A DNA stretch of 37,018 nt. Origin: Thermoleophilia bacterium (lineage in GTDB: Bacteria > Actinomycetota > Thermoleophilia > UBA2241). Position 1 is the first letter of the stretch; every line of letters begins with the position of its first letter. Location: assembly GCA_017882325.1 (NCBI GenBank), contig JADGPQ010000006.1:1-37018 (forward strand), written 5' to 3'. This document shows positions 6,145 through 31,107 of the stretch, one piece after another. The position numbers and the translations under genes were made by a program. The notes under the pieces are model-generated. The model worked only from the letters and a program-made list of their open reading frames with translations. It did not search any database and had not been told where the DNA came from.

Positions 6145-6356
6145 CGTGCGGAGAGTATACCGTCGCCGGGGCCGCTGCGCCGCCCGGCTGAGGCCCCGCA
6201 TCCTCGTCGGCGACCGTGTGTTCGCGTCCGTCCGGGATCTTTGCTACCCTTGCCGCCCGAAACGGAAGAGAACGTCAGTCTCAGGCCAAGTATCACCCTC
6301 AACATAAGACTGAGACTTTTCCGCCAGCGCAGGCGACAAATGCCGCCGAAGGATGG

Positions 6357-26494: not shown

Positions 26495-27922
26495 CTACAT
26501 CTGTGACGAAGAAAGTGGCAGGCGCACGCTGAAGGTGGCGCCGTCACCGGGCTGGGTGCGCAGTGCCACCGAGCCACCGTGCGCCTCGACGATCGCCGCG
26601 ACGATGGCGAGGCCCAGGCCGGCTCCGCCGGACTGCCGCGCCCGCGACTTGTCGGCGCGGTAGAAGGGCTCGAACACCTGGGCCGCGACCTCGGGCGTGA
26701 GACCCGGGCCTTCGTCGGCCACCTCGAGGACGGCGTCGCCGGACTCGCTGAGCAGCCGCACGTGCACCGGACAGTCCGGCGGCGTGTGCTGGCGGGCGTT
26801 GCCGAGCAGGTTGGCGACCACCTGGCGGAGCTGATGCTCGTCGCCGGTGACGACGACTTCCGCCGGCGCCTCCAGCGAGATGTCGCGGACGCCGTCGGCG
26901 GCGCGCGCGTCGCCGACGGCGTCCGCCACGACGCGCGCCAGGTCGACGGGCTCCCGCTCGGGCACGCGGCCCTCGCCGAGTCGCGCCAGCAGCAGCAGCT
27001 CGTCGACCATCACGCCCATGCGCCTGCTCTCCTCTTCGATGCGGCGCATCGCCGTGGCGAGGTCTTCGGGGTCGTCCTTGGCGCCGCGCTCGAAAACCTC
27101 GGCGTAGCCGCGGATGCTGGTCAGCGGCGTGCGCAGCTCGTGCGAGGCGTCGGCGAGGAAGCGCCGCAGCTTCTCCTCCGTGGCGGCGCGTTCCGCGAAG
27201 GCCACTTCGATCTGCTCGAGCATCGCGTTGAGGCTGAGGCCGAGCCGGCCCACTTCCGTGCGCGGCTCGGCCGGCGTCACCCGCTGCGTGAGGTCGCCGG
27301 CGGCGATCTCACCGGCCGTGTCGGCCATCGCCTCGAGTGGGTGCAAGTCGTGCTTGATGAGCAGCCAGGCGGCCACGGCGAGGCCGGCCAGCACGAGCGC
27401 GAACACGAGGGTCTCGATGCCGAGCAGGCGGTCCATAGTCTGCGTGGTCTCGGTAAGCGGCTCCGCGACGATGAGGATGCGCTGCGCGTCCGGGAATGGC
27501 TGCACGAGGACGCGGAAGGCGGGACCGTGGCCGCCGGTGGCGCTCGTGTCGAACAGCGTCGTCACCCCGGCCTGGGCCGACGCGCCGGGCAGCGGGGAGG
27601 GCAGTCGCGGAGTGGGCTGCGTCTCGTTGCCATACGCGAACGAGATCTTGTTGAGCACGACGCCTTGTGAGTCGCGCACTTCGCCGTACGTGCCCGGCGG
27701 CAGGTTGGGGGGCCCCTGGCTGCCGCCGGGCTGGCCTGGGACCCCGGGTATCTGGGTGCTTGCCAGCGTCAAGGCGACCGGCCCCCGGGCCTCACGCAGC
27801 TGCTGATCGACCCGCTCCAGCAGAAACGAGCGCAGCGAGGAGTAGGTGACGATGCCCGCAACCAGAAGGCCCGCGGCGACGAGGCCCAGCAGCGCGACAA
27901 GCAGCCTCGTACGCAGGCTCAC
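26495..27922 (-). CDS. Sensor histidine kinase (HAMP-HisKA-HATPase)
   Basis: FLADASHELRTPLTSIRGYAEVFERG (H box), VANLLGNARQHTP (N box), VADEGPGLTPEVAAQVFEPFYR, GGAGLGLAIV (G box). Confidence 0.96.
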   Translation of the reverse strand: MSLRTRLLVALLGLVAAGLLVAGIVTYSSLRSFLLERVDQQLREARGPVALTLASTQIPGVPGQPGGSQGPPNLPPGTYGEVRDSQGVVLNKISFAYGNETQPTPRLPSPLPGASAQAGVTTLFDTSATGGHGPAFRVLVQPFPDAQRILIVAEPLTETTQTMDRLLGIETLVFALVLAGLAVAAWLLIKHDLHPLEAMADTAGEIAAGDLTQRVTPAEPRTEVGRLGLSLNAMLEQIEVAFAERAATEEKLRRFLADASHELRTPLTSIRGYAEVFERGAKDDPEDLATAMRRIEEESRRMGVMVDELLLLARLGEGRVPEREPVDLARVVADAVGDARAADGVRDISLEAPAEVVVTGDEHQLRQVVANLLGNARQHTPPDCPVHVRLLSESGDAVLEVADEGPGLTPEVAAQVFEPFYRADKSRARQSGGAGLGLAIVAAIVEAHGGSVALRTQPGDGATFSVRLPLSSSQM

Positions 27923-27924
27923 GG

Positions 27925-28629
27925 TCAGTCCCGCGGCGTGCGGATGGTATAGCCCACGCCGCGCACGGTCTGGATGAGCGGCGGACCGAGGCTGTCGATC
28001 TTGCGCCGCAGGTAGCTCACGTAGGTCTCGACGATGTTGGCGTTACCGCCGAAGTCGTAGTTCCACACGTGGTCGAGGATCTGGTCTTTGGAGAGCACGC
28101 GGCGCGCATTGAGCATGAGGTAGCGCAGGAGCTTGAACTCGGTGGCCGTGAGCTCGATGTCGTGGCCGGCGCGACGCACCTCGTGGGTGTCCTCGTCGAG
28201 CTGGAGGTCGGCGACGACCATGCGCCCCATCGCCGCCTCCGCGGGTTGCACGCGGCGCAGGATGGCGCGGATGCGAGCCACCAGCTCCTCGACGCTGAAC
28301 GGCTTGGTCATGTAATCGTCGCCACCGAGAGTGAGGCCGCGCACCTTGTCGTCAGTCGCGTCGCGCGCCGTGAGGAAGAGCACCGAGAGGCTCGAGCCAC
28401 CGTTGCGCAGGCGGCGAGCCACTTCGAAGCCGTCGATGCCCGGCATCATGATGTCGAGGACGACGAGGTCGGGGGAGAACGTCTCCACCATGTCGAGCGC
28501 CTCGCGGCCGCTGTGCGCCACCTGCACGGCGAAGTGTTCGTAGCGAAGCGCCATGGCGATGAGATCGGTGATGCTCTGTTCGTCGTCGACGACGAGGATG
28601 CGCGCCGTCGTCTCCGTTGCCGTGATCAT
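27925..28629 (-). CDS. OmpR/PhoB family response regulator
   Basis: ILVVDDEQSITDLI, LVVLDIMMPGIDGFEV, LFLTARDATDDKVRGLTLGGDDYMTKPF; C-terminal winged helix ELTATEFKLLRYLMLNARRVLSKDQILDHVW...VSYLRRKID...IQTVRGVGYTIR. Confidence 0.97.
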   Translation of the reverse strand: MITATETTARILVVDDEQSITDLIAMALRYEHFAVQVAHSGREALDMVETFSPDLVVLDIMMPGIDGFEVARRLRNGGSSLSVLFLTARDATDDKVRGLTLGGDDYMTKPFSVEELVARIRAILRRVQPAEAAMGRMVVADLQLDEDTHEVRRAGHDIELTATEFKLLRYLMLNARRVLSKDQILDHVWNYDFGGNANIVETYVSYLRRKIDSLGPPLIQTVRGVGYTIRTPRD

Positions 28630-28701
28630 GTGGGAACCCCTCCCGTGTGCGGCCGCTTGCTCTGCTGCTGCCCTCCTGCGACCGGATCATAGGTCTGTTT
28701 C

Positions 28702-28787
28702 CTGAGAGAACCCTGAGAAAACACTGAATGCCGCCTGTGGCCCCTTCGAGGCGGCCGATTCTCAGCATCTTCTCAGGTCGGGTTCAG
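28702..28787. promoter_or_regulatory. Two opposed arrays of 11-bp-phased TCTCAG-type repeats (putative response-regulator boxes)
   Basis: CTGAGA 28702-28707, CTGAGA 28713-28718, CTGAAT 28724-28729; TCTCAG 28760-28765, TCTCAG 28771-28776, GTTCAG 28782-28787. Located between divergent RR and ABC genes. Confidence 0.8.
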
Positions 28788-28860
28788 GGTCCTCCAAGGC
28801 TCGTGGTCTAGAAGTGAGATTGCACACGACCGCGGCGCGTCGCCGCATGAGGAGGAGCCG

Positions 28861-30318
28861 ATGTTCTTCACGTACATCTACCGGGAGCTGCGCCGCCGCC
28901 ACCGGCAGGCGTTGCTCACCGCACTCGGGCTGGCCGTCGGCGTGGGCCTCGTGGTGGCCGTCACGGCCTATGCGGGTGGGGTCAGCGAGGCCCAGGACAC
29001 GGTGCTGCACTCGCTGTACGGTGTGGGCACCGACATCACCGTGTCGCAGACGCAGAAGCTCGACCAGGCCGGGCCGCCGCGCTTCAACATGAACCCGGGC
29101 AGCAAGAGGCAGCAGGGCAAGGCGTTCTCGCGCGACGCCGTGCGGAGCGCGCCCGGTCAGCAGTCGTTCAGTGCGACCAAGGTGACTTCGGTCACGTCGC
29201 TCGACGGCGTTGCCCAGGCGGTCGGTGGGCTCACGTTGAGCTCCACGCACGTGTCGGGCAACTTCGCCAAGGCCTTCAGCCAGGCGAGCTCCCAGCCTCC
29301 GAGCAGCGGCAGCACGAGCGGCAGTGGCAGCTCGCAACCCGCGCCCTCGGCGTCGCAGGCGCCCATCAAGGTGTCTTCCTACTCGATCGCCGGCGTCGAC
29401 GTCGGCAAGATGGGCCTCGGCCCGCTGAGCTCCACGGAGCTGGTCTCGGGCCGCACCTTCACGTCCTCGGAGACGACCACCAAGGTGGCCGTGCTCGACA
29501 AGGCGTACGCCAAGCAGAACACCTACGCGCTCGGCGACACCATCAAGATCGCCGGCGCGAAGTACACGGTGATCGGCCTTGTCACTTCCTCGGCCGGCAG
29601 CTCCTCCGGGTCCAACGTGTACATCCCGCTCACTCTGGCGCAGAAGATTAGCGACAACGTCGGCAAGGTGAACCAGATCTACGTGCGCGCCGCGAGCTCC
29701 AACGACATCGCCAAAGTGAAGACGGAGATCAAGACCGAGCTGCCCAAGGCCACCGTGACCACGGCTCAGGACCTCGCCAACCAGGTGAGCGGCTCGCTGA
29801 AGAGTGCCTCGCAGCTCGCCGACACCCTCGGCAAGTGGCTCGCCATCGCCGCGCTCGTCGCCGCGTTCGCCGTCGCGAGCCTGCTCACCGTATCCGCCGT
29901 CTCAAGGCGCGTCAGGGAGTTCGGCACGCTGAAGGCGCTGGGCTGGAAGAGCCGTCGCGTGGTCGGCCAGGTCATGGGCGAGTCGGTGGTGCAGGGCGTC
30001 CTCGGCGGCGTCATCGGCGTGATCATCGGCGTCGCCGGCGCCCGTCTGATCGCGCACTTCTCTCCGCTGCTCAAGGCTACCGTGGGCCAGACCACCGCTG
30101 CCGGCGGCCCCGGAGGCCTCGCGGCGCCGCCTGGCATGCAGGCTGCTTTGGGTCAGGCCGCGCAGACGGTGGCCGTGCACCTGACGGCTCCGGTGAGCAT
30201 CCAGCTCGTGTTGCTCGCCGTGGGGCTCGCTCTGGCAGGCGGTGTGCTGGCCGGCGCTCTCGGCGGCTGGCGTGCCTCGCGGCTGCGGCCCGCCGACGCC
30301 CTGCGCCGGCTCGATTGA
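28861..30318 (+). CDS. MacB/FtsX-type ABC transporter permease
   Basis: N-terminal TM plus extracytoplasmic domain with a Ser/Pro/Gly-rich insert; C-terminal FtsX region (AALVAAFAVASLLTVSAVSRRVREFGTLKALGWKSRRVVGQVMGES...GGWRASRLRPADALRRLD). Confidence 0.93.
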   Translation: MFFTYIYRELRRRHRQALLTALGLAVGVGLVVAVTAYAGGVSEAQDTVLHSLYGVGTDITVSQTQKLDQAGPPRFNMNPGSKRQQGKAFSRDAVRSAPGQQSFSATKVTSVTSLDGVAQAVGGLTLSSTHVSGNFAKAFSQASSQPPSSGSTSGSGSSQPAPSASQAPIKVSSYSIAGVDVGKMGLGPLSSTELVSGRTFTSSETTTKVAVLDKAYAKQNTYALGDTIKIAGAKYTVIGLVTSSAGSSSGSNVYIPLTLAQKISDNVGKVNQIYVRAASSNDIAKVKTEIKTELPKATVTTAQDLANQVSGSLKSASQLADTLGKWLAIAALVAAFAVASLLTVSAVSRRVREFGTLKALGWKSRRVVGQVMGESVVQGVLGGVIGVIIGVAGARLIAHFSPLLKATVGQTTAAGGPGGLAAPPGMQAALGQAAQTVAVHLTAPVSIQLVLLAVGLALAGGVLAGALGGWRASRLRPADALRRLD

Positions 30319-30369
30319 CAGGAAGACGTCATGATCGTGACTACTCCGCGAACCCTGGAGGAGGACTCC

Positions 30370-31107
30370 ATGCTCTACGACCTGACCGGCGTCACGAAGC
30401 GCTACACGCAGGGGCGCAAGACCGTCGACGCCCTCGCCGGTGTGGACCTGCGGATCGCCGAGGGCGAGTTCCTCGTCATCCAGGGCTCCACCGGCTCGGG
30501 CAAGACGACGCTGCTGCAGATGCTCGGCGCCCTCGACCGTCCCACCGGCGGTTCGCTGATCTACGAGGGACGAGACGTCGCCAAACTGGGAGAGGGCGAC
30601 CTGGCGGAGCTCAGGAGCCACTCCTACGGTTTCGTCTTCCAATCCTTCAACCTCATTCCCACGCTGACCGCCCAGGAGAACGTGGAGACGGCGCTCGTGC
30701 CCTGGCACGTGCGCGCCGACGAGCGCCGGCGGCGCGCCGCCGAGGCTCTCGACGGGGTCGGCCTCGCCGACCGCGCCCGCCACATCCCCTCCGAGCTCAG
30801 CGGCGGCGAGCAGCAGCGCGTGGCCATCGCCCGGGCGCTGGTGCGCGAGCCCAGGGTGATCCTCGCCGACGAGCCCACGGGGAACCTCGACGAGAAGACG
30901 CGCGACGACATCATCGGCCTGCTCGAGGAGCTGTGGCGCGAGCGCGGCCAGACGCTGATCGTGGTCTCGCACGACACCTGGGTCGCAGGCCGTGCCTCGC
31001 GGCGCATTTGGCTCGATGCCGGCAAGCTTGAGGCGCCCCTGGTGGACGACCGTCCCGGCGTCGAAATGACTGCCGTGCCGGTCCCCGAACCGGCGCTGCA
31101 GGCGTAG
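30370..31107 (+). CDS. ABC transporter ATP-binding protein (MacB/LolD-like)
   Basis: IQGSTGSGKTTLLQMLGALDRPTGG (Walker A), ELSGGEQQRVAIARALVREPRVILADEPTGNLD (signature, Walker B). Confidence 0.95.
   Translation: MLYDLTGVTKRYTQGRKTVDALAGVDLRIAEGEFLVIQGSTGSGKTTLLQMLGALDRPTGGSLIYEGRDVAKLGEGDLAELRSHSYGFVFQSFNLIPTLTAQENVETALVPWHVRADERRRRAAEALDGVGLADRARHIPSELSGGEQQRVAIARALVREPRVILADEPTGNLDEKTRDDIIGLLEELWRERGQTLIVVSHDTWVAGRASRRIWLDAGKLEAPLVDDRPGVEMTAVPVPEPALQA

Follow-up and report, generated by a model that had tools for sequence, protein, structure and literature searches.

The window analysed here is the whole stretch of 37,018 nucleotides from a Thermoleophilia genome, and it contains two divergent operons separated by a 231-bp intergenic region (Table 1). 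To the left lie the genes of a response regulator (RR) and a sensor histidine kinase (HK), and to the right those of the permease and the ATPase of an ABC exporter. The extracytoplasmic domain of the kinase comprises about 135 amino acids without any cysteine and would be fit for sensing a presumed envelope signal. The intergenic region holds two arrays of short direct repeats arranged as mirror images, and the two promoters share the same geometry of four 11-bp-phased boxes, a 10-bp spacer and a -10 hexamer, which reads CCACAG/ATTCAG/TCTCAG/TCTCAG-N10-TATGAT towards the RR gene and TCTCAG/TCTCAG/GTTCAG/TCCAAG-N10-TAGAAG towards the exporter.

Table 1. Genes and sequence elements at the RR-HK/exporter locus, with positions in the window.
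Feature	Position	Strand	Remarks
Sensor histidine kinase (HK)	26495..27922	-	Two TM segments, HAMP, HisKA, HATPase
OmpR/PhoB-type response regulator (RR)	27925..28629	-	Pfam Response_reg + Trans_reg_C
Putative -10 TATGAT, RR-HK operon	28686..28691	-	10 bp after box 4
RR-side box 4 TCTCAG	28702..28707	-	
RR-side box 3 TCTCAG	28713..28718	-	
RR-side box 2 ATTCAG	28724..28729	-	
RR-side box 1 CCACAG	28735..28740	-	Degenerate; in 11-bp phase; the three nearest orthologs of the same genus retain CACAG
Inverted repeat GCCGCCT-N12-AGGCGGC	28730..28755		Between the two arrays
Exporter-side box 1 TCTCAG	28760..28765	+	
Exporter-side box 2 TCTCAG	28771..28776	+	
Exporter-side box 3 GTTCAG	28782..28787	+	
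Exporter-side box 4 TCCAAG	28793..28798	+	Degenerate; ortholog forms TCCAAG, TCCCAT, TCCCAC, CTTCAA or TCACAG, always in phase
Putative -10 TAGAAG, exporter operon	28809..28814	+	10 bp after box 4
MacB/FtsX-type ABC exporter permease	28861..30318	+	MacB_PCD + FtsX
LolD/MacB-type ABC ATPase of the exporter	30331..31107	+	

A first-pass annotation of this DNA had named three hexamers per side, and all of them were found in place and on their strands in both arrays, with exact 11-bp spacing and with TATGAT 10 bp beyond the last box of the left array. If each array is continued in phase, one more box of weaker sequence appears on either side, CCACAG and TCCAAG, respectively, bringing the total to four. 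On the exporter side, where TTCAGG-N18-TCTAGA had been proposed, the -10 is better placed at TAGAAG (28809-28814) than at TCTAGA (28807-28812), and a sigma-70 scan gave no -35/-10 pair and no -35. The positions assigned to both -10 hexamers are read from the sequence. The result of the scan, together with a conserved gap of 10 bp between the last box and the -10 (see below), agrees with the earlier suggestion that the boxes stand in place of a -35.

For scoring, boxes were defined as TCNCAG, which follows the published motif of Mycobacterium tuberculosis PhoP but allows any base at position 3. At period 11, a set of four boxes gave 17/20 on each strand of the intergenic region, a value reached by none of 3000 dinucleotide shuffles (0/3000) on either strand, and other periods from 7 to 19 scored at most 14. 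The pattern TCTCAG-N5-TCTCAG occurs without mismatch at three places in the 3.02-Mb genome, two of which are the window arrays, while the third precedes another exporter operon. Allowing at most one mismatch, we counted 15 matches in the genome, compared with 2 for the reversed pattern. The 7-bp arms of the inverted repeat located between the arrays recur at L099 and, with one compensated change, at L097. By eye, L101 has a 9-bp version with a longer loop, and the repeat was not seen at L098 and L102. L028, a locus with two RR copies whose recognition helices are nearly identical, has divergent arrays too, and the place between them is taken there by a long inverted repeat of unrelated sequence.

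The best PDB relative of the RR is M. tuberculosis PhoP (277.7 bits; next family 178), and a PhoP-like RR from Williamsia (L030) hits the window RR at 276.7 bits, the next RR of the genome scoring 157.4. On these pairwise scores, against PDB families and the Williamsia protein, the RR most probably belongs to the PhoP subfamily. In the PhoP-DNA structure, the bases are contacted by N212, V213, E215, S216, Y217, and Y220 (PMC4832192). Four of these six residues are identical in the RR (N212, E215, Y217, and Y220) and two are conservatively replaced (V213I and S216T), the recognition helix being NIVETYVSYLRR in the RR and NVVESYVSYLRR in PhoP; R222 and R223 of the structure are kept as well. PhoP binds as a tandem dimer to TCACAGC repeats whose spacer is strictly 4 bp, corresponding to an 11-bp period, and its affinity for three or four motifs in a row exceeds that for two (PMC4832192). 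Position 3 of the box is T or A here, as compared to A in the PhoP box. The idea that residue 216 of the RR (S or T) covaries with the third position of the box (A or T) was considered and rejected, as T216 RRs use both TCTCAG and TCACAG. With a receiver domain, a winged-helix Trans_reg_C domain and one-turn direct repeats at its own promoter, the RR shows the features of the OmpR/PhoB family.

Orthologous loci had been set beforehand as the refutation test for the annotated box set, and the hexamers, the 11-bp phase and the 10-bp gap were found to be kept both in the family and in other Actinobacteria. Orthologs of the RR were identified in 13/15 family genomes and orthologs of the exporter permease in 12/15; several of these genomes are fragmented drafts, and the absence of a gene therefore means little. 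When the arrays were placed by the boxes alone, TA followed exactly 10 bp downstream in 23/26 family promoters, including 12/14 RR promoters and 11/12 exporter promoters, compared with only five occurrences at the remaining offsets up to 30 taken together (TA background 1-2%). The hexamers drift between TCTCAG, TCACAG, and TTCAG forms, giving TCWCAG as the box consensus across orthologs, while phase and offset are constant. The exporter promoter keeps its array in three genomes in which the RR gene is no longer divergent from it (G009, G010, and G001), and in G014 no array was found directly upstream of the exporter. Read by eye, the arrays of some exporter promoters (L104, L105, and L106) are longer, with five or six boxes, and one of their outer steps measures 10 bp. 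Two genomes, G003 and G011, were considered as RR-free negative controls and rejected; in G011, part of an RR gene lies at the end of a contig along with divergent arrays, and in G003, where the missing RR may be an effect of the draft assembly, an array still precedes an HtrA fragment.

RR genes from other actinobacterial families, which had played no part in setting up the array test, gave a high-scoring period-11 array in 20/31 upstream regions, with 0 or 1 array at periods 8-10 and 12-15; the remaining 11/31 RR promoters were without a scoring array. In all array-bearing promoters of this outgroup (20/20), NANNNT is located exactly 10 bp downstream (background about 3%), and the neighbours of these RR genes are otherwise different. 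Conservation at both promoters thus supports the earlier prediction of an OmpR/PhoB-type box set through which the adjacent RR would control its own operon and the exporter, and it is very probable that the repeats serve the neighbouring sensor-regulator pair as genuine docking sites on the DNA.

The predicted regulon is wider than the two operons of the first-pass annotation and also includes HtrA, a SurA-like foldase and a second MacB-type exporter. A profile, R1, was built from the RR and exporter promoters only, all other target classes being held out, and its two top-scoring matches in the genome are the window arrays. Held-out matches in this genome were found before two HtrA genes (on C143 and C275), that is, 2/3 of its HtrA-type genes, before two genes on C12, one for a SurA/PrsA-like lipoprotein foldase and the other the ABC gene in an ABC/HlyD/MacB cluster, and before a short ORF on C290. 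Among the 83 sites listed across 13 family genomes, 14 precede RR genes, 11 exporter genes and 18 HtrA genes, where by our own arithmetic fewer than one HtrA site would be expected by chance. The other 40 precede none of the three classes and many of them are weak; true and chance sites are probably mixed among the weak profile matches. The array also precedes SurA-like genes in the four genomes G000, G008, G012, and G014, and a GtrA/DPM-type or family-2 glycosyltransferase gene in two genomes. In 14 other genomes outside the family, R1 gave few sites; these lay mostly at RR genes, and a link to HtrA or exporter genes was not found. The third HtrA gene of this genome (G000, C128, L193) has no array. 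It adjoins an RR/HK pair of its own, different from that of the window, which is perhaps a second HtrA-controlling two-component system.

Two tandem four-box promoters (13117-13066 and 12899-12844) precede the SurA-like foldase gene on C12 (L109). A third array on this contig belongs to the ABC gene of the MacB cluster and reaches into the 5' end of its open frame when this is called from TTG, which suggests a true start further downstream. An MMPL transporter gene is found near the cluster. On C290 (L110), a complete four-box array with its N10 (6251-6297) precedes an ORF of 35-46 amino acids. The counterpart in G006 (L249) is a 173-aa lipoprotein-like protein without a Pfam match, and that in G004 (L256) resembles C290 in its DNA; in this genome the gene may have decayed or be evolving fast.

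Taken as a whole, we consider it highly probable that the arrays are operator/promoter elements of the adjacent PhoP-type two-component system, which would activate itself and control extracytoplasmic protein quality control and export. Most likely, this uncultured actinobacterium switches an envelope-stress response through this element. From the sequence evidence we infer the binding of the RR, its dependence on phosphorylation, the activation and the signal. An envelope signal would be passed by the kinase to the RR, and the phosphorylated RR would bind head-to-tail along the four TCWCAG-like boxes of each promoter, which at 11-bp spacing all lie on one face of the DNA, filling them cooperatively. 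With 10 bp between its end and the -10, the last box takes the position of a -35, so that the bound RR would recruit RNA polymerase as PhoB does, by class-II-like activation, and the fixed 10-bp offset would bring the last RR protomer into contact with the polymerase and so lead to activation. One array would then drive rr-hk in a positive feedback and the mirror array the MacB-type exporter, while the phosphorylated RR would also activate the genes of the HtrA proteases, the SurA/PrsA-like foldase and the second ABC/HlyD/MacB exporter cluster. As the same element stands before these genes, the output is predicted to be an extracytoplasmic quality-control and export response.

The presence of the array at two MacB/FtsX-type exporter operons could also indicate a regulon devoted mainly to the detoxification of antimicrobial peptides or drugs, with HtrA and the foldase as side targets. 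We hold this to be unlikely, though worth weighing, as HtrA is the largest class of held-out targets and in several genera (genomes G001, G009, G010, and G011) stands divergent from the RR gene in place of the exporter. It is improbable that the RR binds the boxes as a repressor, blocking RNA polymerase at both promoters until it is released on stress, even if the last box overlaps the -35 region, from where some regulators repress. The place of the -35 is also that occupied by PhoB-type activators. No -35 is available to support RR-independent transcription, and the strictly kept 10-bp offset would be expected for polymerase contact, although CutR acts as a repressor of htrB through a site at -17 (PMC12802291). 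Still less probable is that the boxes belong to another regulator and that the adjacent RR is merely a target. Full-length OmpR-type RRs number about a dozen in the genome and autoregulation is something we infer, but arrays precede the RR gene throughout the family and at the 20/31 outgroup loci with otherwise different neighbours, the recognition helix matches that of PhoP with its known box TCACAGC, and no R1 match of this genome falls on a contig where another full-length OmpR-type RR is encoded. An origin of the repeats by chance, or through the sequence bias of a GC-rich intergenic region, has virtually no standing, for even though TCTCAG-N5-TCTCAG with two mismatches is not rare in the window, it is refuted by the conserved phase and offset as well as by the shuffle test and the genome pattern counts.

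Beyond the self-activating system proposed for this locus, the PhoP-type systems of Actinobacteria might share an ancestral self-activating promoter, composed of phased TCWCAG boxes, 10 bp and a -10, and in this uncultured family the systems would form a dedicated regulon for extracytoplasmic proteostasis with HtrA, the SurA/PrsA-like foldase and MacB exporters. We put this forward tentatively, as a possibility rather than the expected outcome; if true, the role of PhoP in M. tuberculosis would represent a later use of an older envelope-stress regulator. OmpR/PhoB tandem boxes and HtrA-controlling two-component systems are already known as kinds. A full-text literature search for TCTCAG direct repeats of a response regulator gave no match, and the present system, with its strict four-box/N10 code and its predicted regulon in an uncultured lineage, appears to be new and undescribed. 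The boxes, their phase and the -10 offset provide a testable code for predicting a PhoP-type regulon in bacteria known mainly from metagenomes, and they would tie the PhoP-type RR subfamily to envelope protein quality control.

The pho boxes of Escherichia coli stand in place of the -35. Like the arrays described here, the boxes of PhoB are tandem 11-bp repeats, consisting of CTGTCAT plus 4 bp (cited in PMC4832192), whereas the window system differs in its hexamer (TCWCAG), in having up to four boxes as a rule, in the divergent mirror pair and in its targets. Two-component control of HtrA-like proteases is also known from the secretion-stress systems CssRS/CutRS of Streptomyces (PMC12802291; PMC5157995), but the CutR site is TAWATAAA as compared to TCWCAG, and CutS senses through two conserved cysteines, which the sensor domain of the window kinase lacks. 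MprAB of Corynebacterium and Mycobacterium is likewise an envelope-stress system and binds the htrA promoter and its own (PMC12113857), although the motif of C. glutamicum MprA, TKTTAAGAAM, is unlike TCWCAG. Given these differences between the published motifs, CutR and C. glutamicum MprA were rejected as sources of the boxes. PhoPR of M. tuberculosis shares with the window system the RR subfamily, the base-contacting residues and a box of 11-bp period (TCACAGC-N4), while its regulon has been described around lipids, secretion, and virulence and the one predicted here comprises HtrA, a foldase and exporters. M. tuberculosis PhoP reportedly autoregulates via repeats downstream of the transcription start (PMC3413638), in contrast to the window RR promoter, where the boxes replace the -35. 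The arrays suggest that boxes replacing the -35 are a widespread means of PhoP-type autoregulation in Actinobacteria, unlike the downstream arrangement at M. tuberculosis phoP.
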